NCBI GenBank assembly: GCA_009780675.1
Contig: WQZP01000020.1
Span: forward strand, 1 to 45,703
Origin: Spirochaetaceae bacterium
GTDB lineage: Bacteria > Spirochaetota > Spirochaetia > CADAEX01
DNA length: 45,703 bases
Direction: 5' to 3'
Below, piece by piece: positions 14,757 to 45,703 of the stretch. The position numbers and the translations under genes are program-made. The notes beneath the pieces were generated by a model. It ran no database searches and was not told the DNA's origin. It saw nothing but the letters and a program-made list of their open reading frames with translations. Position 1 is the first letter of the stretch; each line of letters begins with the position of its first letter.

Positions 14757-14797
14757 GAATGTTTAGAATATAAATCCACCTTGTGCGAGGAATGTTT

Positions 14798-15418
14798 ATG
14801 GAAGTACAACTTAAGGAATTGATTGATAAGATCAAAAGCGATGGTGTAAATGTTGCTGAATCAAAAGCAGCTGAAATAGTTAAAAACGCCGAAGCAAAAT
14901 CTCAGGAAATTATTGAAAGAGCTAGAAAAGAAGCTTCTCAAATAGTTGCAAAAGGCAAAGAAGATGCACTTAGGCTAGAAAATTCAGGGAAAGAGGCGCT
15001 AAGTCAGGCAGGAAGAGATCTTGTTTTAAATCTTCAGTCAAAAATAACAGATCTTTTTAATATAATAGTTAAAAACGAAGCTGCAGCGGCAATGGATGAA
15101 AAACTCCTGGGAGATGCAATTACAAAGCTAATTACTTCATGGAATGGCGATGTTTCAAATCTTAAAATACTTCTTTCAGAAAAAGATTATGAAAAGGTAG
15201 AAAAAGGTTTAACCTCAAAATTAGCAGAACAGATTAAAAAAGGTCTTGATATAAAGCTTTCTTCACAAATAGGAGCAGGTTTTCTTGTTTCTGTAAAAGA
15301 TGGTTCTGCATATCATAATTTTTCAGCTGAAGGAATCGCAGAGGTGCTTTCAGAGTATTTAAACCCCAAACTTTCAGCGCTGCTTGAAAAAGGGGTCAAA
15401 GGGAAAGCGGAGGCATAA
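14798..15418 (+). CDS. atpE: V-type ATPase subunit E
   Basis: Subunit E forms the peripheral stalk that holds the A3B3 head still against the membrane part. Of the three in-frame starts (GTG 14783, ATG 14792, ATG 14798) the last is chosen because GAGGA lies 6 bases upstream; it gives 206 residues. The N-terminal half is a long charged helix rich in Ala, Lys and Glu, as expected, and the C-terminal half is a globular cap. It is the first gene of the E-DUF2764-A-B-D-I-K operon; the next gene starts 3 bases after its stop. Confidence 0.93.
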   Translation: MEVQLKELIDKIKSDGVNVAESKAAEIVKNAEAKSQEIIERARKEASQIVAKGKEDALRLENSGKEALSQAGRDLVLNLQSKITDLFNIIVKNEAAAAMDEKLLGDAITKLITSWNGDVSNLKILLSEKDYEKVEKGLTSKLAEQIKKGLDIKLSSQIGAGFLVSVKDGSAYHNFSAEGIAEVLSEYLNPKLSALLEKGVKGKAEA

Positions 15419-15421
15419 GCC

Positions 15422-15976
15422 TTGGCAAATCATTATTATTATTTAATTGCTTCATTACCTACGCTCTCTTATGATATGGAAAATCCCGTATCAGAAGAGG
15501 AATTTTTTGGTGAGTACGAATCCGTATTAACAGAAAAAGACTATAAAATTTTAAAAAGCGCAAAACTTATCCCACTTGAAGAAAAATCCGAAAATGTTAC
15601 TCTCGAAAAATGGAACAACTGGGAAAGAAGTCTTAGAAACGAACTTGTAAGGATGAGAGCAGGTAAAAAAGGCATTGATGGTGAAAAATATGTTGCTGGC
15701 GAAGGATTTGAAGCAGGTATTCCTGAAATTGCGCGAGAAGCGTTTCAGGCTCCTTCCCCTTTAGATGCTGAATCGATTTTAAATAAAGCAAGATGGGATT
15801 GTTTGGAAACCCTTGAATCAGGGCATTATTTTGATTTTGCTAAAATTATTATCTATTTTTTGAAATTGCAGGTAGTACAAAGGAAACTGCAAATTAGTAA
15901 AGAAAAAGGGAAAACTGCTTTCTCTGAGATTTATGCTGCTATTCATGATAAAAATAGCGCACAGAAAAACAGTTAA
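15422..15976 (+). CDS. DUF2764 protein of the V-ATPase operon
   Basis: This is a soluble protein of 184 residues that begins with a TTG; GGAGG in the end of atpE lies 8 bases upstream. The N-terminal pattern HYYYLIASLPTLSYDMENP is typical of DUF2764. The family occurs at this place in V-ATPase operons of treponemes and chlamydiae, which have no recognisable subunit C or F gene. It may stand in for one of these central-stalk parts (inference). No membrane segment is present. A hairpin with a T-run follows the stop. Confidence 0.85.
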   Translation: MANHYYYLIASLPTLSYDMENPVSEEEFFGEYESVLTEKDYKILKSAKLIPLEEKSENVTLEKWNNWERSLRNELVRMRAGKKGIDGEKYVAGEGFEAGIPEIAREAFQAPSPLDAESILNKARWDCLETLESGHYFDFAKIIIYFLKLQVVQRKLQISKEKGKTAFSEIYAAIHDKNSAQKNS

Positions 15977-15993
15977 ATATAGTAGATATATCT

Positions 15994-16027
15994 TTACAAA
16001 CTAAACATAGATGTTTGTAACTTTTTT
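15994..16027 (+). terminator. Attenuator-like hairpin inside the V-ATPase operon
   Basis: TTACAAAC (15994-16001) pairs with GTTTGTAA (16013-16020) around an 11-base loop, and a run of six T follows at 16022-16027. The stem is AU-rich, so it is probably a weak terminator or an mRNA-stability element rather than a full stop. Confidence 0.5.
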
Positions 16028-16077
16028 AAAGAATATATGAAAATGTGAATGAGGAATATTTGTTGTAGGGGTAGTTT

Positions 16078-17865
16078 ATGGCGGATATAAAAAGTATGGG
16101 TAAAGTTGTCGGAGTAAATGGCAACATGGTAACTGTCGAGTTTGAAGGCGAAGTTCTCCAGAATGAGGTTGGCTATGTTCAGGTAGTCGCAGCAGAAGGA
16201 AAGAGCAGTCTTAAAGCAGAAGTTATTAGGATAAAAGGTAACAGAGCAGATTTGCAGGTCTTTGAAATGACCCGCGGTATAAGTATTGGGGATAAAGTAG
16301 AATTTACTGAAAATCTTCTTGCAGTAACTTTAGGACCAGGTCTTTTGGGACAGATTTATGATGGTCTTCAAAACCCTCTTCCACAGCTTGCGGAAAAAGA
16401 GGGATTCTTTCTTAAAAAAGGTGTTTATTTAAATCCACTACCAGATGATAAAAAATGGGAATTTACACCTTCTGTAAAAATAGGGGATACGGTAGTTAGA
16501 GGAGATTCTATTGGGGTTGTTCCCGAAGGAATTTTTCAACACCAGATAATGATTCCCTTTGGTATGTATGATACATACAAGGTCAAATCGATCGTTGGTC
16601 AGGGCTCTTATACAATAAATGAAAAAGTTGCTGAAGTTGAAGATTCAAAAGGAAAAGTTATTCCTCTTACAATGAAATTTCAGTGGCCTGTAAAAAGAGC
16701 AGTAGATGCTTATGCAGAAAGGTTAAAACCTGTTGAGCCAATGATCACAAAGTTAAGACTTATAGATACATTTTTTCCTGTTGCAAAAGGGGGTACATAT
16801 TGTGTACCTGGTCCGTTTGGCGCTGGAAAAACAGTTTTGCAGCAGATAACAAGCCGAAATGCAGAAGTAGACTTGGTAATTATTGCAGCGTGCGGTGAAA
16901 GAGCTGGAGAGGTTGTTGAAACACTTAAAGAGTTTCCGGAACTTATTGACCCAAGAACCGGACGCACCCTAATGGAAAGAACAATAATAATATGTAACAC
17001 AAGCTCCATGCCTGTTGCGGCAAGAGAAGCTTCTGTATATACAGCTGTAACTCTTGCAGAATATTATCGGCAAATGGGCCTTGATATTCTTCTTCTTGCA
17101 GACTCAACATCAAGATGGGCGCAGGCGATGAGAGAGATGTCAGGTCGTCTTGAAGAAATCCCGGGAGAAGAAGCATTCCCAGCATACCTTGAATCTGTTA
17201 TAGCTTCTTTTTATGAAAGAGCAGGTATTGTAAAGCTTAAAAATGGCAAAACAGGGTCTGTAACAATAGGTGGTACAGTAAGCCCTGCTGGTGGAAACTT
17301 TGAAGAACCAGTTACTCAGGCTACTCTTAAAGTAGTAGGGTCTTTCCATGGACTTTCAAGAGAAAGATCAGATGCAAGAAAATACCCTGCAATTGATCCT
17401 CTTTCAAGTTGGAGCAAGTATAAAACTTCTCTTGATTCAAAAGCAGTAGAATATGCAAGAAAACTTCTTTTTAGGGGAAGCGATGTTGCGCAGATGATGA
17501 AAGTTGTAGGAGAAGAGGGAACAAATATAGAGGATTATATTTTATACCTCAAAGGCGATTTTCTTGATTCTGTTTATATGCAGCAGAACTCTTTTGACCC
17601 TGTTGATAACTCTGTTATTCTTGAAAGACAGAAACATATTTTTAAAATAATACTTGAAATTCTTGGAACAATTTTTAACTTACCTACAAAAGAAGAGGCA
17701 AGACAGTATTTTAACCAGTTAAGACAGCTTTTCCTTGACTTTAATGGAACAAGTTGGCAATCAGAGGGATTTAAGGCGAAGGAAAAAGAACTTCTTCAAT
17801 TGATTTCTTCAAAACAAAAAAGTGTTGAAGAAACTGTATCAGCTATGCTGGAAAATACAAAGTAA
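16078..17865 (+). CDS. atpA: V-type ATPase catalytic subunit A
   Basis: Subunit A carries the nucleotide-hydrolysing site of the A3B3 head. It has 595 residues, the normal size, including the non-homologous region that separates A from F-type beta subunits. The P-loop GPFGAGKT is at 245-252, and the GERAGE and SGRLEEIPGEE segments follow as expected. The start is the ATG at 16078; the ribosome-binding site is weak (GTAGGGG). It lies 101 bases after DUF2764, beyond an attenuator-like hairpin. Confidence 0.98.
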   Translation: MADIKSMGKVVGVNGNMVTVEFEGEVLQNEVGYVQVVAAEGKSSLKAEVIRIKGNRADLQVFEMTRGISIGDKVEFTENLLAVTLGPGLLGQIYDGLQNPLPQLAEKEGFFLKKGVYLNPLPDDKKWEFTPSVKIGDTVVRGDSIGVVPEGIFQHQIMIPFGMYDTYKVKSIVGQGSYTINEKVAEVEDSKGKVIPLTMKFQWPVKRAVDAYAERLKPVEPMITKLRLIDTFFPVAKGGTYCVPGPFGAGKTVLQQITSRNAEVDLVIIAACGERAGEVVETLKEFPELIDPRTGRTLMERTIIICNTSSMPVAAREASVYTAVTLAEYYRQMGLDILLLADSTSRWAQAMREMSGRLEEIPGEEAFPAYLESVIASFYERAGIVKLKNGKTGSVTIGGTVSPAGGNFEEPVTQATLKVVGSFHGLSRERSDARKYPAIDPLSSWSKYKTSLDSKAVEYARKLLFRGSDVAQMMKVVGEEGTNIEDYILYLKGDFLDSVYMQQNSFDPVDNSVILERQKHIFKIILEILGTIFNLPTKEEARQYFNQLRQLFLDFNGTSWQSEGFKAKEKELLQLISSKQKSVEETVSAMLENTK

Positions 17866-17880
17866 GAGAGGCTAAAAAGA

Positions 17881-19176
17881 ATGCGAAAGGTTTATAGTAA
17901 AATAGAATCAATAGCAGGAAACGTTATTACAGTTTCTGCAGAAGGGATAAAATATGATGAGCTTGCCGAAGTTACATCGGCACACGGCAAATCTCTTGCC
18001 CAGGTTATAAAACTGAGTGATGATAAAGTTTCTCTCCAGGTTTTTTCGGGCGGAAGAGGTGTTTCCACAAATGATGAGGTACGCTTTCTTGGCCACTCAA
18101 TGCAGATATCTGTTTCAGATAATCTATTAGGTCGTATTTTTAATGGTAGCGGCGAGCCAAGAGATAATGGACCTTCTCTTTATGAAAACATGACAGAGAT
18201 AGGCGGACCATCTGTTAACCCTGCAAAAAGAATTATTCCAAGGAATATGGTACGAACCGGTATTCCAATGATAGATGTTTTTAATTCTCTTGTTGAATCA
18301 CAAAAGCTTCCTATTTTTTCTTCATCAGGAGAGCCATATAACGAACTTCTTGCGCGTATAGCGATGCAGGCAGAAGTTGATATGATCATTCTTGGGGGAA
18401 TGGGTCTTAAATATGACGACTACCTCTTTTTTAAAGATGCGCTTGAAGAGGGCGGAGCTCTTAGCAGAACAGTCTTTTTTGTTCACACAGCATCTGACCC
18501 AATAGTTGAGTGTCTTCTTGTACCAGATGTTTCGCTGGCTGTTGCAGAACAGTTTGCGCTTAAGGGCAAAAAAATACTTGTACTTCTTACAGATATGACA
18601 AACTTTGCAGATGCTCTTAAGGAAATTGCTATTACAATGGAGCAAGTACCTTCCAATAGAGGTTATCCTGGAGACTTGTATAGTCAGCTTGCGGCCAGAT
18701 ACGAAAAAGCTGTTGACTTTGAAGGGGCAGGATCCATAACACTTTTGGCTGTAACAACAATGCCTGGAGATGACGTAACTCATCCTGTACCTGATAACAC
18801 AGGATATATTACAGAAGGACAGTTCTATCTTAAAGGTGGAAGAATCGAACCTTTTGGATCTCTTTCAAGACTTAAGCAGATGGTAAATAAAGATACCAGA
18901 GAAGATCATAGGTCTCTTATGGATGGTATGATAAAACTTTACGCTGCATACAAAGAAACAGTTGAAAAGAAGTCAATGGGTTTTAGAATGTCAGACTGGG
19001 ATACAAAACTCCTTAAATATGGTGCCATATTTGAGAGAGAGCTTATGGATCTCACTGTAAATATTTCTCTTGAGAAGGCTCTTGATAAAGGTTGGGAAAT
19101 TCTCGCAGAGTGTTTCAAGTCAGAGGAGACAGGAATGAGATCAGAACTCCTTAATAAGTTCTGGCCTAATAAATAA
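17881..19176 (+). CDS. atpB: V-type ATPase regulatory subunit B
   Basis: Subunit B alternates with A in the head and completes its nucleotide site but lacks a P-loop of its own. It has 431 residues. The segments [11 protein letters not shown]-like (near 92-100) and [17 protein letters not shown] fit the family; the latter sits where A has its P-loop. The start follows subunit A by 15 bases and subunit D follows by 14, so it is well inside the operon. Confidence 0.97.
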
Positions 19177-19190
19177 GGAAGAGAGATAAA

Positions 19191-19787
19191 ATGGCAAAAA
19201 TCAAGCTTACTAAAAATGAGCAGAAAAAAGAAAAAGACAGTTTAAAAAGATATAAAAGATATCTGCCTACTCTTATACTCAAAAAACAGCAACTCCAACT
19301 TGTAATAAGACAGGTTGAAAATGCGCTTAAAGAGAAAAAAGAAGAAAGGGACAAATTCCAGAATGAAGTTTATTCATGGGTTGATGTTTTTGGTGAAAAA
19401 ATTGATTTTGATAGCCTTTTAGGGATTAAATCTCTTGAAATTGAAAGTGGAAATATAGCTGGTGTGGATATTCCTATTTTTAAAGGGATATCTTTTGACC
19501 TGCCTGAATATGATCTTTACACAAAACCGCTGTGGGTTGATGCAGCAGTTGAAAAAGTCTCAAAATTGCTTGCTTTTGACGAAGAGGTAAAAATACTTGA
19601 AAAGCAGATTGAACTTCTGGGGATTGAGTTAAGAATAACTACCCAGCGTGTTAATCTTTTTGAAAAAGTAAAAATACCAGAGACAAAAGAAAATATCAGG
19701 AAAATACAGATATACCTTGGCGACCAACAAACTGCAAGCGTTGTGCGCGGAAAAATGGCCAAGAATAAGTTGGTAAAGGTGTCATAA
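19191..19787 (+). CDS. atpD: V-type ATPase subunit D
   Basis: Subunit D is the central rotor shaft that turns inside the A3B3 head. It has 198 residues and is dominated by two long charged helices at its ends, as expected. The N-terminus IKLTKNEQKKEKDSLKRYKR is typical. The ATG is preceded by GGAAGAGAG. The next gene starts 2 bases after its stop, so translation is probably coupled. Confidence 0.93.
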   Translation: MAKIKLTKNEQKKEKDSLKRYKRYLPTLILKKQQLQLVIRQVENALKEKKEERDKFQNEVYSWVDVFGEKIDFDSLLGIKSLEIESGNIAGVDIPIFKGISFDLPEYDLYTKPLWVDAAVEKVSKLLAFDEEVKILEKQIELLGIELRITTQRVNLFEKVKIPETKENIRKIQIYLGDQQTASVVRGKMAKNKLVKVS

Positions 19788-19789
19788 TT

Positions 19790-21610
19790 ATGATAGTAAA
19801 AATGAAAAAAGTTTCTCTTGTAATTCTTGACTCAACCAGGGAAGAATCACTTGAAAAACTTAGAAAGTTGGGTGTTGTTCACATTGCTAGAGAATATAGA
19901 GCAACTGAAGCAACCAATGCATTAATTGAAAAGAAAACTTTTTTTGAAAAAACTATTTTTGCTCTTCCCAAACTAAAGAAAGAAACAAAATCAACATCTG
20001 GAAAACCAGATCTTGCTGAAGCTGAAAAAGTTGTAGCAGAAGCAAATAGTATTATGGACAAAATAAATGGTCTGCAAGATGGAAAAGAAAAAGATAAAAA
20101 AGAAATTTTAAATCTTGAGCCATGGGGGGATTTTAACCCTTCAACTGTATCCAGTCTTGAGCAAAGTGGATTTTCTCTTGGATTTTATGTACTTACAAAA
20201 GAGCAGTTTAAGAATCTGCCTAAAGATGTAAAATATGTAAAAGTAAACAAGATAAAAGACACAGTTTATATTCTTGCTATCTTTTTAAAGGGTGAGGCTC
20301 CTGTTGAAATTGCAGGCGAAAAACTTTTTTTACCTGCTGCGGGCCTAAAACAGCTTTCTGAAAATATTAAAAAGAAAGACGAAGAAATTGTAAACTTAAA
20401 GAAAGAGCTGGAAAAATTCGCAGAGAAAAAAAATGTTATTGAAGAAGGGCTCAAAGAACTTAATGTAGCTATTGAGTTTGAGAGTGTTAATGCTGAAATG
20501 AATACGGAAGATCGCTTTTCCTATATTTCAGGTTATTTGCCTGTTAATCTTGTTGATGAGTTAAAAGCAGAAGCTAGTGTAAATAATTGGGCGCTTCTTA
20601 TAAGAGACCCAAGTAGTGAAGACAATCCTCCTACGCTTATTAAAAATAATAGGTTTGTAGAATTCCTGAAACCACTCCTTACTTTCCTTGATGTAACACC
20701 TGGCTATAAAGAATTTGATATAAGTTTTTTCTTTCTCCTTTTCTTTATACCGTTTGTAGGAATGATTGTTGGCGATGCAGGATATGGGGCAGTATTTTTA
20801 ACAGCTACAATTCTACTGCGTTTTACTGTGCCAAAATTCAGAGGAAGGATTTTTGGGCTTTTCTTTGTATTAAGTTGTTCTATTATTGCATGGGGAACAA
20901 TGACCGGAAACTGGTTTGGTTCGGAAACAATATCAAAATTACCACTAATTGCAGCATTGACAATACCTCAAATAGCAGCTTTTTCAGAGGTTGATACTTC
21001 GGAAACTGTTAGACAGCTTGCGCTTGGAATTGGTATGGTGCAGCTTACTGTGGGTATATTAATAAATTTTGCAAGAAAAATGCCTTCATTGGTTGCATTT
21101 GCGAATTTTGGCTGGCTTTTTGTTCTTTATGGAATGTATTTTGTAGTACAGTTTTTTGTAATAGGAGGAGATTCAATAAATCCTCTTGCCCTAAAGTTGA
21201 TTTCAATAGGATTTTTTCTTTTAATAATTTTCTCTTATCAGGAAAAAGGGAAAAACTTTTTTAAGGGAACATTGGTTGGATTAGCATGGTCGCCGCTTAC
21301 AGCGCTTAATTGTATAGATATTCTTGCAAACATTATCTCTTATATTAGGCTTTTTGCTGTAGGTCTTGCGGGTTGGGCAGTAGCTTCAAACTTTAATGCT
21401 ATAGCTGCTGGAGTTGCCAATACCGGTGGAACTGCCGCTATAATAGGTGCAGCAGCTATTGTTGTTGTTTCGCAAACATTTAATATAGCGCTTTGTACTT
21501 TGGCTGTGGTTGTTCATGGTGTAAGGCTTAATATGCTTGAATTTGGAAGCAAGGTTGGGATGGAGTGGACTGGGTATCCTTATAGTCCATTCAAAAAAGA
21601 AGGTGTTTAA
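19790..21610 (+). CDS. atpI: V-type ATPase membrane subunit I (a-subunit)
   Basis: Subunit I is the membrane stator, which provides the ion half-channels and the essential arginine facing the c-ring. It has 606 residues. The N-terminal half is soluble and coiled, and about seven to eight membrane segments follow from residue 310. The motif NIISYIRLFAVGLAG carries the expected arginine at about Arg520. A conserved GDAGYG segment lies near the first membrane helices. It binds the peripheral stalk (E) on one side and subunit K on the other. Confidence 0.96.
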   Translation: MIVKMKKVSLVILDSTREESLEKLRKLGVVHIAREYRATEATNALIEKKTFFEKTIFALPKLKKETKSTSGKPDLAEAEKVVAEANSIMDKINGLQDGKEKDKKEILNLEPWGDFNPSTVSSLEQSGFSLGFYVLTKEQFKNLPKDVKYVKVNKIKDTVYILAIFLKGEAPVEIAGEKLFLPAAGLKQLSENIKKKDEEIVNLKKELEKFAEKKNVIEEGLKELNVAIEFESVNAEMNTEDRFSYISGYLPVNLVDELKAEASVNNWALLIRDPSSEDNPPTLIKNNRFVEFLKPLLTFLDVTPGYKEFDISFFFLLFFIPFVGMIVGDAGYGAVFLTATILLRFTVPKFRGRIFGLFFVLSCSIIAWGTMTGNWFGSETISKLPLIAALTIPQIAAFSEVDTSETVRQLALGIGMVQLTVGILINFARKMPSLVAFANFGWLFVLYGMYFVVQFFVIGGDSINPLALKLISIGFFLLIIFSYQEKGKNFFKGTLVGLAWSPLTALNCIDILANIISYIRLFAVGLAGWAVASNFNAIAAGVANTGGTAAIIGAAAIVVVSQTFNIALCTLAVVVHGVRLNMLEFGSKVGMEWTGYPYSPFKKEGV

Positions 21611-35642: not shown

Positions 35643-36971
35643 ATGAGCTGGAATAAATATATTAAAAAAAAACTTATCTTTGTAATTTTTTTGCTTTTTA
35701 CATTTCATTTGTATTCTGTTGAGCAGCATAAAGAAACCCTCTCTGTTTATTACAGTGGCGTAACATGGGCAATTGTGCAGCAGAAGGCAGAGGAAGAGGT
35801 GCGGGAAGTAGATTTATTGGGGATGGATTTATTAGAAGTAGATCTATTAGAAGTGGATTTATTGGGAATAGACTTACTGGAAGTGGATCTATTGGAACCA
35901 GAGGTCTCAATAGATCTATCAATAGAAGAACGTAAAAATATAGTATCATTTTTAAATGAAAATTTTATAAATATGCTTACTGCTTCGGGAGTTTTCACTG
36001 TTTTTGATTTTTCTGATTATCCGGAAAAAGATGCGGAAAGAATAGGAATGTACAGATATTTGCTTTCTCCAAAAATAACAGAGTTTAATATTACAGAATC
36101 AGAAACAAGTGGTCTGTTTTTAAAAATCAGTATAAATTTTACATTTGAAGATAATATAAATAATACCAGGAGAAATTTTTCTACTTCCGCCATAGGCTGG
36201 GGCAATAACAGAAACAGGATGATCGCTAACGCGCTTGATAAAGTTATTAATCAGTTTGAATCTGTTATAGTTGAGTTTGAGGAACTGGCAGAGAGATTCA
36301 GGATAATCGATATATTTCAGGGAAGTGTTGTAATCAATGCTGGCAGAAATAGGGGAATAAGAAAAGGGGACTTTTTTTACACTTATGATTATCTTACAGG
36401 AGAAAAAACAGGGAATTTTATTGTTGAGAACGTGGAAGAAAATCTGGCATTCGCGAGGATTCTGGATACAAAAGTAACGCCGGAAGTAGCAAGTTTATTG
36501 CGGCCATATAATTATACAGGCCTTTTATCAAAGGCATCTGTAAGTTATTTTACAGGACGCTTTTTTTCGGGAAATGTTGTTGGGGCAAGGGTTTTATGGA
36601 CAAAGGGGTTTTATACTATTAACCCTATTTTGGGATTAAATAGATATGGTCTTGCTGATGCTAATAATAACAAAGTAGCTGTAATAAGTCCCTACATGGG
36701 GCTTAGGATCGTAAGATATATAAGATCATTTACTATTTCTTCTGTTGCTTCATTTGATGTGGGTTATGTATCAGAAAATAAAATATGGGGCACAACTTCT
36801 GGGTGGGAATATTTTGGAGGAACAGTAAAGCTGGAAGTTTCAAGGAGAATTACGGACCATTTTTCCATACACATAGAAGGGGGATATACAGGATTCTTTT
36901 CTCCTAATCACGAATATTTTCCGGAGATCACTGGGTTTGTTTTTGGCGCAGGTGTAGGTTATAGATTTTAG
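35643..36971 (+). CDS. Predicted outer-membrane protein with CsgG/FlgT-like region and beta-barrel
   Basis: This is an exported protein of 442 residues with a signal peptide of about 25. A tandem pentapeptide block, VDLLE-like and six units long, covers residues 56-85. The next region (about 95-200) resembles the CsgG/LpoB/FlgT fold, with FLNENFINMLTASGVFTVFDFS. A FlgT-like segment (about 220-285, VVINAGRNRGIRKGDFF) follows. The last 150 residues alternate polar and hydrophobic residues and end in GAGVGYRF, a beta-barrel with the C-terminal Phe expected for outer-membrane insertion. Domain names are by resemblance only. It probably shares a transcript with the lipoprotein before it. Confidence 0.78.
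   Translation: MSWNKYIKKKLIFVIFLLFTFHLYSVEQHKETLSVYYSGVTWAIVQQKAEEEVREVDLLGMDLLEVDLLEVDLLGIDLLEVDLLEPEVSIDLSIEERKNIVSFLNENFINMLTASGVFTVFDFSDYPEKDAERIGMYRYLLSPKITEFNITESETSGLFLKISINFTFEDNINNTRRNFSTSAIGWGNNRNRMIANALDKVINQFESVIVEFEELAERFRIIDIFQGSVVINAGRNRGIRKGDFFYTYDYLTGEKTGNFIVENVEENLAFARILDTKVTPEVASLLRPYNYTGLLSKASVSYFTGRFFSGNVVGARVLWTKGFYTINPILGLNRYGLADANNNKVAVISPYMGLRIVRYIRSFTISSVASFDVGYVSENKIWGTTSGWEYFGGTVKLEVSRRITDHFSIHIEGGYTGFFSPNHEYFPEITGFVFGAGVGYRF
35808..35897 (+). repeat. 15-bp minisatellite in a coding region, six units
   Basis: Six 15-base units, each close to GTAGATTTATTAGAA, run head to tail in frame. They encode VDLLG-MDLLE-VDLLE-VDLLG-IDLLE-VDLLE. Because 15 is a multiple of three, gain or loss of units changes protein length without shifting the frame. 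Confidence 0.92.
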
Positions 36972-40247: not shown

Positions 40248-40870
40248 AAGATTTTTTTATTAAAGGATTAGAGCTTATTGGTATTTCTCATAATGACGCG
40301 CAACTTAATAAGCTGCTTGCGTTTTATGAAGAGCTTTCTATATGGAATAAAAAAACAGGATTTCTAAAAGCAGAAGGGAGAAGTCTTGTTGTAAAACATT
40401 TTTTTGATTCTCTTGCCGGAGCGCCTCTCCTTTCACAAATGAGTTTTAAAACAATTGCAGATATAGGAACAGGAGCAGGTTTTCCGGGAATCCCTTTATC
40501 TATATTTTTTCCGGATAAACAGTTTACTCTTGTAGAGAGGTCTGGGAAAAAAACCGCATTTCTTAATAATTGCAAATTGTTGTTTGCGCTTGATAATATT
40601 GTAATAGAAGAACTGGAGCTTGAAAATGTAAGAAGTATTTTTGACGCAGTAACGTTTAGGGCTTTCAGAAATTTTGTTGAATATTATAAAGCAATATCTG
40701 CTATAGTAAGTCCGGAAGGATTCTTTTTTTCCTATAAGGGCAGAAAAACAGAGATAGAGACAGAGATGCGCGAAACAGGGATAAAGTTATTTAAAATTGA
40801 AAAAATAGATGTCCCTTTTCTTGAAGAAGAGCGGCACATAGTAATTACAAAAAAGGAAAATATTGTTTAA
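40244..40870 (+). CDS. rsmG: 16S rRNA (guanine527-N7)-methyltransferase RsmG
   Basis: RsmG (GidB) methylates guanine 527 of 16S rRNA using S-adenosylmethionine. It has 208 residues, the normal size. The SAM-binding motif [13 protein letters not shown] is near residue 75. The ATG overlaps the mnmG stop by four bases, so translation is coupled. The 3' end overlaps the end of the convergent TPR gene by four bases. Confidence 0.95.
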
Positions 40871-42222
40871 TCGCCTTTGGAAGCTTTTGTCAAAATACTC
40901 ATAAGCTCTTTTCCACTTATAAGATCTATGGTCCTTGCTTCAACAAATTTTGAAGCTGTGTCGGTAAATGCACCTGCTGTAAGACAGAATGACTGTCCTG
41001 CTCTTACATCTTTGCCTTTAAAATAGAGGTCTCTGAGTATAATATCTCCTACAGGAGTTGTTGCTCTCATAAATCTAAAAAGCGCAATATCTTCCATTTG
41101 GCTAGATGTTACTTCTGCTACAACATCTACATAGTCATTTTTCGAGGCTGTAATATCTGTAATTTTGACCTGTGCATTTGGATACAATAATGGAGTAATT
41201 TTTTTGCATAAATTCAAAAATTCAGAACTGGAAGACATAAGGTATGTTTTTAAATTTTTATTGGACGCGAGTTCTGAGTATTTTGATTTTAATGACTGAA
41301 CATCTTTATAAGTACCGGCAATACTTAATATTGTGTCAAAATTTTTAATTGCTGAATTTACTTTATTTTCCAATATATATGTATTACCAAGCTGATAAAG
41401 AAGCTCAAGCCGTATCTTTGGGTCAATCTCTTTATGCCTTAACCCAAGCTCCATATCTTCAACTGCCTTGACATAGTTTTTTTTCTTTATATCTATTTTC
41501 CCTGCTTCAAGAGAGGCTGGAGGGCCGTAAATAGGGTCTGCCCTTAAATGGCTGAATATTTTATACCCATTTTCACTTTGACCTGCTTCGCTGTATGCCT
41601 GACCAAGTGTATATAAAATATCTTTATCTCCTGGGGAAAGTTCAAAGCATTTTCTAAGATATCCTACAGCATCTTTAAACCTGCCCAGGTGGAAAAGAAT
41701 TTTGCCTATATATTGTAATGTAGCTACGTGTTCGGGCATAAGATTTTTTGCAGCAATAAAGGAAGAAAGAGCTTTATCGTAAATTTTTCTGTCAAAATCT
41801 ATAACACCCAGATTATAATTTACTTCAAATACATCTTTATTTTTTTTCTTGGCATAATCAAGGTATTTATATGCTTCGTCGATTTTGCCTGTTTTAAGGG
41901 CAGATATTGCATATTTATATATTATATCAACCTCATTCTCCTGGGAGGTCCCTTCGGGCTTATCAAGTAATAACTTAAAAAGATGGAGCGACTTATCGTA
42001 TGTCTCTTCGGAGTAGTAGAGGTTTGCCAACTCCATTATGGCTTGTGTATCTTTAGGGTTTTGTTCAAGTCTCTTGTTTGCGTATTTTATTATTGAATTT
42101 CTGTCTTTGTTTTTAGGGGTGTCAGAAGCGCTTTCACCACCTGAAAGCTTTTTTACAATAATAAAAATAAGCGCCACAACAATCACTATAACAAGAACAA
42201 CAGCAAGCATTACTATATTCAT
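40867..42222 (-). CDS. Membrane-anchored TPR protein
   Basis: This protein of 451 residues has one N-terminal membrane helix (about 5-25) and a soluble part with six or more TPR-like repeats (about 40-290). The repeats read like FKDAVGYLRKCFELSPGDKDILYTLGQAY. The C-terminal domain (about 310-445) is not a TPR and is not recognised. It ends near a hydrophobic, Ala/Thr-rich segment. It is convergent with rsmG and overlaps it by four bases. No clear ribosome-binding site is visible. The role is unknown; a scaffold in the inner membrane is likely. Confidence 0.85.
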   Translation of the reverse strand: MNIVMLAVVLVIVIVVALIFIIVKKLSGGESASDTPKNKDRNSIIKYANKRLEQNPKDTQAIMELANLYYSEETYDKSLHLFKLLLDKPEGTSQENEVDIIYKYAISALKTGKIDEAYKYLDYAKKKNKDVFEVNYNLGVIDFDRKIYDKALSSFIAAKNLMPEHVATLQYIGKILFHLGRFKDAVGYLRKCFELSPGDKDILYTLGQAYSEAGQSENGYKIFSHLRADPIYGPPASLEAGKIDIKKKNYVKAVEDMELGLRHKEIDPKIRLELLYQLGNTYILENKVNSAIKNFDTILSIAGTYKDVQSLKSKYSELASNKNLKTYLMSSSSEFLNLCKKITPLLYPNAQVKITDITASKNDYVDVVAEVTSSQMEDIALFRFMRATTPVGDIILRDLYFKGKDVRAGQSFCLTAGAFTDTASKFVEARTIDLISGKELMSILTKASKGD

Positions 42223-42872: not shown

Positions 42873-43104
42873 AACGGGACAAGCACCCCTTGAAAGCTTT
42901 GGTGGCTATATTACCCTATTATATAGAAGAAATAATGATCCAAAAGGCAAAAAACCTTAAAAAATAGTGCTTGCATCAGTATTTTTCATTATTCTGCATG
43001 ATTTATGAGAGTGAAAAAGTTTATTGACAAAATACCCTCACAGCGATAGGCTTTATTTGTATAAATAGAATTTTAGCTAAACTAGAGATTACGGAGGCTA
43101 TAAA

Positions 43105-44124
43105 TTGGAAAGCCCTACAATAGGAATAAGAATTGCCAATGGAACATATTTTCCCATTTTAAAGCAGGATGATAGCGCTAAAAAAAAGGTAGTTCTTTCG
43201 CCTGTAAAAGAAAACCAAACAGATGTAAAAATCGATATTTTTAGGGGAGAAGGCGAGGGGATGTACAATCCTGTATATGTTGGAAGCCTTATTCTCAATA
43301 ATATTGATCAAGAATCTGGAAAAGTTCCTGATGTTGAGCTACTTTTAAGTGTAAATGACGATGGCATACTTGATGCGCAGGCATTTGAACCAATATCTGG
43401 CGTTAAGCAGTTTTTATCTGTAAGTCTTGATTCAATTGATAGCAATTTCAGCTTTTATGATATGCCGGATTCTTCTGAAGATAGCGATTCAATTGATGAA
43501 CCCCGTTTTTCATCTGATTTTGAAGATGATGAGAGCGAAAATAGTCAGGATGATACAGAAGATAGTATAGAAGATGAAGAAGAAAAATGGTCCTATGAGC
43601 GTGAAGATGACGATGAATATGAAAGAGAAGAAAGAAGAAGAAAAAGCAAAATAATAGCTATAATATTGATAGTTTTGTTAGTGCTTTTACTCGGTTTTCT
43701 TGCCTATGTGCTTATTATGAGGCCTGCTTTTGCTAGAAACGCTGATGGCAGCGGCTCTGCGGTAGTTCAAAGAGAATTGGAAACACCGCCTCCTGCAGCG
43801 CGACCAGAGACGCCTCCTCCTGTTGCAGCGCGACCGGAAACACCACCTCCTGCAGCGCGGCCAGAGACGCCTCCTCCTGTTGCAGCACGACCGGAAACAC
43901 CGCCTCCTGCAGCGCGACCAGTAACACCTCCTGCGGCACAGCAAGCGCCTGATGCAAGAGGGCAAGATATAGTATACACTATAAGATGGGGCGATACCCT
44001 ATGGGATATTTCAAATACCTTCTATAGAACTCCATGGCTTTATAGAAAAATTGCCAGAGATAATAATATTAGGAATCCAAACCGCATATATGCAGGCCGG
44101 CGCTTAATAATAAAACCTGAATAG
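43105..44124 (+). CDS. Hsp70-SBD-like / TM / LysM fusion protein
   Basis: This protein of 339 residues has an unusual domain order. Residues 1-108 resemble the beta substrate-binding domain of DnaK/Hsp70, without any ATPase domain: IGIRIANGTYFPIL, ENQTDVKIDIFRGEGE, LGSLIL-like and VNDDGILDAQAFE fit in order. A very acidic stretch (110-178) follows. One membrane helix (about 182-206) comes next, then a Pro/Ala repeat (225-272) and a LysM peptidoglycan-binding domain (288-339, YTIRWGDTLWDIS). The expected topology is Hsp70-like part inside and LysM in the periplasm. The start is TTG with GGAGG seven bases upstream. It is followed by ftsK after about 90 bases. The function is unknown. Confidence 0.85.
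   Translation: MESPTIGIRIANGTYFPILKQDDSAKKKVVLSPVKENQTDVKIDIFRGEGEGMYNPVYVGSLILNNIDQESGKVPDVELLLSVNDDGILDAQAFEPISGVKQFLSVSLDSIDSNFSFYDMPDSSEDSDSIDEPRFSSDFEDDESENSQDDTEDSIEDEEEKWSYEREDDDEYEREERRRKSKIIAIILIVLLVLLLGFLAYVLIMRPAFARNADGSGSAVVQRELETPPPAARPETPPPVAARPETPPPAARPETPPPVAARPETPPPAARPVTPPAAQQAPDARGQDIVYTIRWGDTLWDISNTFYRTPWLYRKIARDNNIRNPNRIYAGRRLIIKPE
43780..43935 (+). repeat. 57-bp Pro/Ala-encoding minisatellite
   Basis: A 57-base unit encoding ETPPPAARPETPPPVAARP is repeated twice in full (43780-43836, 43837-43893) and once in part. It forms the periplasmic spacer between the membrane helix and the LysM domain. In-frame changes in copy number would alter the spacer length. Confidence 0.88.
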
Positions 44125-44216: not shown

Positions 44217-45703
44217 GTGTTTAAAAATAAAAAAAAGGCTATAGCAACAGCGGTAATTACTGTTATAGCCATATATCTTATATTTGCAATCTTTTCTGCC
44301 AAATCAGGCGCTGCAAATCTGTTACTATTTCCAGGACTTTTTCTATATAACTATTACTTTGACTCAGCATTTTATATCCCCATATATCTTTTGATTTGCA
44401 CGTTCTTTTTGCTAAAACATAGGTTTAATAAAAGCAATATAATTCTGCTTATCCTTACAATTTTTCCTTTTTTGACAGTTAGTCTTGCACTGCGCCTTAT
44501 ATATGTTGAAATAGGTTTAAGCGCAATTGAAAGAGGGCTTTTGAATTCATTTGGGCTATTTGCCCCATTTGTTCTATTCCTTCTGGCAATAGCACAGCTT
44601 ATTCTTATTGTAAAACTTGGCGTTTTTCTGCATGAAAAAATGAAAAAAGAAGATGCTGTTGTTATCGAAAATGCTGCTGTCGAGGGTAGCGTTGTAGAAG
44701 CTGGCGTTGTGGAAGATAGTGTTGCAGAAGATGATGAAGATTACGAGGGAAGTTATGAGCCTGTTCTGCAAGTTCATAACCCAATTGAAGTTAATAACGC
44801 TGAGGACGACGAAGCGGATAACGATGATATCCCGCACTCCCCTGCAAGAGCAAAATTTACCGAATTAAATTTCAACTATTCTCCTGCTGAATATGGCGTT
44901 TCTGCTCCTGATTTGGAAGATAAAAAAGAACAGAAAATACTGACAACAGAAAATATTCCCGACAATGTTGATGATGAAATTTATAATCAGCCTGCATACT
45001 ATAGAATGGGAAAAGAAGCAGAAGAAATAAAAGATTTTTCAGAGTTAGATAATCTTCCTCTTGACCCAGACCCGGAAGAAGCAGAGATGGATCAGTATGA
45101 AGAAGATGAAGAGGGGAATGAAAAAGAAGATATTCTTGAAGCAGAAGATGCTCTGGAAGCAGAGGCAGATAAAAATATTGCCGAAGTTTTAACACAGTCG
45201 GATAATAACCCTGTTGTTGTAAAAGAGTATTTTGCATCACAGAAAAAAATTAATCTTAAAAAAGCAAGTTATAAAATTCCTGTTGATATACTTGATGAAT
45301 ATGAAGAAACCGGTTTTGTGGCAATTGATGAGCGTACTAAGGAAGAGGCCAGGATATTAAAGCAAACTCTCGCGGAATTCAGAATAGAAGCAGAAGTTAC
45401 TGGAATAAAAAGAGGTCCTGTAATTACAATGTTTGAAATACTTCCTGCGCCTGGAGTAAAGCTTTCAAAAATTACAAATCTTGCAGATAATATTGCGCTG
45501 CGTCTTGCTGCGTCAAGGGTAAGGATTGTTGCCCCAATCCCTGGAAAGCATGCAGTTGGAATAGAGGTGCCGAACAGAAAAAGGGCTATTGTTTCTTTTC
45601 GGGAACTTATTTATGTGGATTATCCGCAATATTCAAAATATCATCTTCCGATTATTCTTGGAAAAGATATAACAGGCGAAGAGCAAATAATCGATCTTAC
45701 GCA
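44217..45703 (+). CDS. ftsK: DNA translocase FtsK/SpoIIIE (3' end cut by window)
   Basis: FtsK pumps chromosomal DNA through the closing septum and helps resolve dimers. The frame begins at GTG 44217, with GGAG seven bases upstream, and stays open to the window end (495 codons so far). About four membrane segments occupy residues 1-135, a short form. An acidic, low-complexity linker (about 140-330) follows. The alpha domain of the motor starts near residue 350, with GPVITMFEILPAPGVKLSKI and GKHAVGIEVPN. The Walker motifs lie beyond the edge. Confidence 0.94.
   Translation, partial: MFKNKKKAIATAVITVIAIYLIFAIFSAKSGAANLLLFPGLFLYNYYFDSAFYIPIYLLICTFFLLKHRFNKSNIILLILTIFPFLTVSLALRLIYVEIGLSAIERGLLNSFGLFAPFVLFLLAIAQLILIVKLGVFLHEKMKKEDAVVIENAAVEGSVVEAGVVEDSVAEDDEDYEGSYEPVLQVHNPIEVNNAEDDEADNDDIPHSPARAKFTELNFNYSPAEYGVSAPDLEDKKEQKILTTENIPDNVDDEIYNQPAYYRMGKEAEEIKDFSELDNLPLDPDPEEAEMDQYEEDEEGNEKEDILEAEDALEAEADKNIAEVLTQSDNNPVVVKEYFASQKKINLKKASYKIPVDILDEYEETGFVAIDERTKEEARILKQTLAEFRIEAEVTGIKRGPVITMFEILPAPGVKLSKITNLADNIALRLAASRVRIVAPIPGKHAVGIEVPNRKRAIVSFRELIYVDYPQYSKYHLPIILGKDITGEEQIIDLT

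Follow-up and report, generated by a model that had tools for sequence, protein, structure and literature searches.

Introduction

The polar landmark proteins FimV and HubP combine a periplasmic LysM domain, one membrane region, an acidic cytoplasmic part and a client-binding TPR domain, and the LysM domain of FimV binds peptidoglycan (PMC12918733). MapZ has a cytoplasmic N-terminus, one helix and an outer domain (PMC7055233). Peptide binding by Hsp70 proteins is normally understood as being controlled by ATP. DnaK beta domains lacking the lid have already been solved (PDB 1dg4 and 1q5l), so the substrate-binding domain (SBD) can fold alone.

Here we describe the computed domains, fold, conserved groove, lost coupling features and conserved neighbourhood of a protein encoded in the window (the whole stretch of DNA analysed, 45,703 nucleotides), and infer its topology, peptide binding, wall binding and position in the cell. 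The chance seems about even that it is a peptide clamp needing no ATP, mounted on a single-pass scaffold that is anchored in the wall; it would work in the manner of FimV/HubP or MapZ and be a member of neither. No description of a protein joining an SBD, a membrane helix and a LysM domain was found in the literature searched, which excludes most subscription journals; as far as that literature shows the combination is undescribed, as a reading made from the sequence alone had already proposed.

Results and discussion

Domains and topology

The gene, read as an open reading frame (ORF) at 43105-44124 on the forward strand, encodes 339 amino acids, begins with TTG and ends with a TAG at 44122-44124. 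A Shine-Dalgarno-like GGAGG (43093-43097, +) lies seven bases 5' of the start codon, and no small RNA or tRNA was found in the 880-base gap upstream of the gene. Residues 1-112 (43105-43440, +) are an Hsp70 beta-SBD. They are followed by an acidic, low-complexity linker, predicted to be cytoplasmic, at residues 113-182 (43441-43650, +), which ends in the basic cluster EERRRKSK. Across the family this linker averages 32% D/E and ranges from 19 to 521 residues. Near its start, at residues 118-123 (43456-43473, +), is YDMPDS, by alignment a degenerate copy of a family motif described below, which is coil of low confidence in the models. A single membrane helix (residues 183-205; 43651-43719, +) leads to a proline-rich spacer, putatively periplasmic, in which ETPPP(V)AARP is imperfectly repeated (residues 206-288; 43720-43968, +), and the chain ends in a LysM domain (residues 291-337; 43975-44115, +) matching PF01476 at 39.4 bits against a cut-off of 20.9 (E 5.9e-10), which bears out its earlier recognition by eye. 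Orthologues in three other genomes of the same genus are 62-68% identical to the window protein.

The helix is preceded by an excess of lysine and arginine, and the N-in/C-out orientation is predicted for that reason. In the 12 residues before it the mean K/R count over 106 members is 3.66, vs 1.63 after it, and the count is higher before than after in 90 of the 106. This supports a cytoplasmic SBD and a periplasmic LysM domain, ie the arrangement about one membrane helix that the sequence-only reading had predicted.

An Hsp70 domain without its ATPase

The Pfam HSP70 model matches residues 7-169 of the window protein, at model positions 395-559 of 599 only (39.4 bits, cut-off 20.6, E 3.1e-10), and a phmmer search of PDB sequences with the first 110 residues returns Hsp70 SBDs. 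The AlphaFold2 model of residues 1-123, made from an alignment of 65 relatives, contains eight strands at a mean pLDDT of 79.6. With this model as query, Foldseek returns nothing but Hsp70/DnaK SBDs among its best 50 PDB matches (lowest E 5.2e-8, query TM 0.70-0.78). The predicted fold therefore agrees with the earlier proposal of a stand-alone DnaK-type beta-SBD; the suggestion of an FHA-like module, made at the same time, finds no support, the best 50 matches being Hsp70 SBDs only.

The actin-like ATPase domain is absent: the ORF starts at the SBD, and there is no Pfam match before model position 395. The helical lid (SBD-alpha) is also absent, as judged from the sequence, because the beta domain is followed by the low-complexity acidic stretch and the membrane helix. 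In the 65-sequence alignment both the VLLL interdomain linker of Hsp70s and D393 are missing. P419 is deleted in all 65 of these sequences and in all 38 of the orthologue sample described below, T420 is deleted with it, and the position of K414 is mostly E. With ATPase, linker and lid missing, the protein is not an Hsp70.

In a tree built on 110 residues the family stands apart from all Hsp70s on a long branch. An origin from the short, BB0264-like Hsp70s of spirochaetes was considered and dropped, since the same tree sets the family apart from them as from all others and does not resolve its origin. Two observations concern these short paralogues. The one in a Borrelia-like genome (L066:14078-15586, 503 residues) ends soon past its beta-SBD, where a full lid would not fit, and several others (among L223-L234) share a contig with fliF, about 25 kb away. 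Besides the SBD protein the window genome encodes one complete DnaK; a third HSP70 match (C1:3028-3309, model positions 136-235) is probably MreB. Pairing with a second Hsp70 was rejected, DnaK being the only one carried.

Conservation of the groove

A first test of groove conservation used loci found by a pattern scan and was biased, because the scan patterns themselves lie on the groove. It was replaced by a test on 38 non-redundant orthologues, which came from a whole-genome search and not from groove motifs. The groove positions, in E. coli numbering, were 401, 403, 404, 426-429, 433, 436-438 and 472, and the E. coli SBD was checked against the PDB. Mean entropy is 1.02 at these positions vs 2.10 elsewhere (p=1e-5), and a comparison with matched core-type residues also finds it lower (p=0.003). 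All 38 orthologues have hydrophobic residues at the pocket positions 401, 426, 436, 438 and 472, and 36 of them have Q at position 433. The arch residues are not those of E. coli (M404 to A, A429 to V), a change that could make peptide binding weaker.

Part of the groove conservation could reflect the fold. Taken to its end, that argument makes the SBD a worn-down beta-sandwich, a structural or dimerising module with a groove conserved for folding alone, and the changed arch and the long branch from all Hsp70s are in keeping with it. It is nevertheless unlikely, as the groove is more conserved than other core-type positions and the residues facing the peptide are hydrophobic in every member. 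Judged from the alignments, the family has retained its peptide-binding face and lost the one that couples to the ATPase: the groove is conserved, VLLL and D393 are missing, P419 is deleted, and E mostly stands in place of K414. Such a pattern is more in keeping with a passive clamp than with a chaperone in decay.

In most members the SBD is immediately followed by the motif Y-[DE]-[IV]-P-[DE]-F, with P in 63 of 65 and F in 63 of 65, and in some members with long linkers P-[DE]-F is repeated many times. In AlphaFold2 models the motif has low confidence and no secondary structure. Docking of the motif (YDIPDFEL) into the groove in cis was tried and discarded; in the AlphaFold2 model of a central member it is coil, with a pLDDT of about 50.

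Distribution

The SBD protein is present in 42 of 60 sampled Spirochaetia genomes, the window genome included and full-length Hsp70s set aside. From a scan of genome contigs (375 relatives) 80 loci were kept, all spirochaetal or unassigned, and in 69 of these a single complete ORF encodes SBD, helix and LysM. Recurrence in so many spirochaete genomes rules out a chance or assembly fusion, and by sequence comparison the gene is a spirochaete-wide orthologue group. Among other classes of the phylum the protein was found in three genomes (G060, G081 and G072), the TPR gene described below adjoining it in two of the three; most genomes from these classes have DnaK or short Hsp70s only. The LysM domain is missing from the Borrelia-like L066 and L067 and from L055, L057, L060, L061, L062 and L068; since several lineages lack it, wall binding is not essential to the core role of the family. 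Two genomes, G037 and G017, each encode two SBD proteins with a membrane helix (L057/L058 and L068/L241), the copy near ftsK being without LysM and the copy elsewhere with it.

Gene neighbourhood

The usual gene order is mnmE-mnmG-rsmG, a divergent TPR gene, the SBD gene, an SLT lytic transglycosylase gene, uppP and ftsK. The membrane TPR gene lies upstream of the SBD gene and divergent from it in 60 of the 74 loci that extend far enough to show it, SLT immediately follows the SBD gene in at least 39 of 70, and ftsK is downstream in 29 of the 49 loci of sufficient extent. The position beside ftsK, which the sequence-only reading had noted, holds for the family to which the window belongs; the more usual setting is the whole run from TPR to ftsK and not ftsK alone. 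In the window the divergent neighbour is a membrane-anchored TPR protein identified by profile match (40867-42222, -). Its family (78 proteins) has a mean of 0.2 K/R before the N-terminal helix and 6.8 after it, and because so many follow the helix the TPRs are predicted to be cytoplasmic. Residues 353-442 of this neighbour also match Mrr_cat, a restriction-endonuclease fold, just over the cut-off. Downstream is the 5' part of ftsK (44217-45703, +; FtsK_alpha, E 3.4e-31), which runs off the window. Elsewhere in the window an ORF at 35643-36971 (+) has the short repeat EVDLLGMDLLEVDLLEVDLLGIDLLEVDLL near its N-terminus, and a run of ORFs at 14783-21610 (+) resembles, by eye, a V-type ATPase operon.

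In the genomes read from the window's family the SBD gene directly precedes ftsK with a gap of about 6-100 bp; neither SLT nor uppP lies at the locus, and the adjacency of SBD gene and ftsK persists. The window genome (G000, 99% complete) encodes an SLT protein away from the locus, and uppP (BacA, PF02673) was not found in it, where many relatives have uppP beside ftsK. In a T. pallidum-like genome of 1.14 Mb, SBD-LysM, SLT and mnmG are consecutive; from the gene order, the gene numbering and TP0048 as a CcmA-like protein, we take this SBD gene to be probably TP0042. A Borrelia-like genome has the order ftsK, uppP, SLT, SBD with membrane helix and no LysM, TPR, an M23-like gene, lepB and the 503-residue Hsp70, and by order its SBD gene is presumably BB0260, adjoining the SLT counterpart BB0259. 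No relevant paper naming BB0260, BB0261 or TP0042 was found in the literature searched.

These neighbours bear on two other explanations. As a membrane-tethered holdase, the SBD would capture membrane or exported proteins that are unfolded or nascent and hand them to DnaK, LysM merely keeping it near the envelope. The kept groove and the complete DnaK of the host would suit such a role, which is hardly probable all the same: there is no lid, ATPase or linker for release and hand-over, the wall anchor would not be needed, and it is wall and division genes, not dnaJ or grpE, that are conserved beside the SBD gene. As a division-site marker of the MapZ type, the protein would contact the FtsZ tail or FtsK through its P-[DE]-F motif or its SBD, and so connect the division ring with wall, whether old or new. 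The layout, N-in with one helix and a wall-facing exterior, is that of MapZ, ftsK stays adjacent in the window's family after other neighbours are lost, and the family motif bears a loose likeness to FtsZ tails encoded in the same genomes (eg DLDIPAIFRDR and DIDVPTFLRN), a lead only. But only about four residues are alike, the basic residue of FtsZ is lacking, the window protein carries a degenerate motif, and ftsK was not found beside the gene in the T. pallidum-like and several Treponema-type genomes. We consider this role distinctly doubtful.

The SBD gene sits beside cell-wall and division genes, and its product is for that reason probably a wall-anchored docking point.

Flagella

The Borrelia SLT counterpart BB0259 is needed for proper periplasmic flagella, which are disturbed by its loss (PMC8517470). 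Since SLT so often follows the SBD gene, the protein might regulate or position the opening of peptidoglycan for periplasmic flagella, tethering or timing SLT while the SBD reads flagellar export or basal-body proteins. All nine genomes without FliF (of good completeness or in the FliF-negative clade) also lack the SBD protein. The loci readable past rsmG in that clade (L186, L191, L194 and L197) run from rsmG to uppP-ftsK with the TPR-SBD-SLT block missing, a clean loss of the module. One genome that is 58% complete (G002) has the SBD protein and no FliF was found in it.

The correlation does not, however, establish a dependence on flagella. In a quick version of the MnmG tree all its FliF-negative genomes form one clade (SH-aLRT 98), so the joint loss is a single event. 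Nine of 50 FliF-positive genomes are without the SBD protein, which is therefore dispensable in some flagellated spirochaetes, and in the window's family SLT has left the locus while ftsK has stayed. We regard the flagellar role as rather unlikely. The single joint loss, the nine FliF-positive genomes, the ftsK linkage in the window's family and the SLT linkage in Treponema-type genomes together favour a general wall-remodelling and division setting in which flagella are not singled out.

Proposed function

In the passive clamp that we prefer, the cytoplasmic SBD, having lost ATPase, linker and lid and kept its peptide groove, would passively grip short hydrophobic stretches in its partners, with no ATP cycle involved. 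Additional weak contacts would come from the acidic linker and its P-[DE]-F motifs, a region that is probably disordered, and the outer LysM domain would fix the complex to peptidoglycan. Because of that fixing, cytoplasmic partners would be held where the wall is opened or built, ie near the lytic transglycosylase, FtsK and the membrane TPR protein. Put more boldly, and only tentatively, the protein may be a transenvelope landmark of the spirochaetes' own, unrelated by descent to HubP, FimV or MapZ: an Hsp70 clamp without its ATP motor, mounted on the wall and gathering cytoplasmic proteins at sites of wall remodelling. A family that keeps the groove and lacks the motor would show that the Hsp70 clamp can be turned to passive docking. 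Little is understood of how spirochaetes position their flagella, wall enzymes and division sites, and the protein is a concrete candidate for an organiser of them.

Comparison with known systems

The FimV/HubP/TspA polar landmarks share with the window protein a periplasmic LysM domain, one membrane region and an acidic cytoplasmic region (the topology of the window protein being inferred from charges), and a module at the cytoplasmic end, which binds clients in FimV/HubP and is predicted to do so here. They differ in that the domain order is reversed, the cytoplasmic end of the window protein being N-terminal, and an Hsp70 SBD replaces the TPR domain of FimV. The window protein has no TPR match and no FimV model among its best 25 NCBIfam matches; the TPR domain sits in the neighbouring gene. 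The FimV model TIGR03505 matches none of 60 relatives, though the control was also without a match.

With MapZ/LocZ, the streptococcal division-site marker, the window protein shares an N-terminal cytoplasmic part, one helix and a C-terminal outer domain facing the wall. Here, however, the outer domain is a LysM domain and the cytoplasmic part begins with a folded SBD, and the protein reaches 14 bits with the MapZ model NF047909, whose cut-off is 700. The short spirochaete Hsp70 paralogues (BB0264-like, about 500-600 residues) also have an Hsp70 SBD, belong to the same phylum and lie a few genes away in Borrelia-like genomes, but they keep the ATPase. To the DnaK/Hsp70 SBD (PF00012; PDB 1dkx, 4f01 and 1dg4) the likeness lies in the beta-sandwich fold, the groove positions and about 23% identity with the SBD of E. 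coli DnaK; the window protein differs in being without the ATPase, the VLLL linker, the P419/T420 loop and the helical lid, and in being fused to a membrane helix and a LysM domain.
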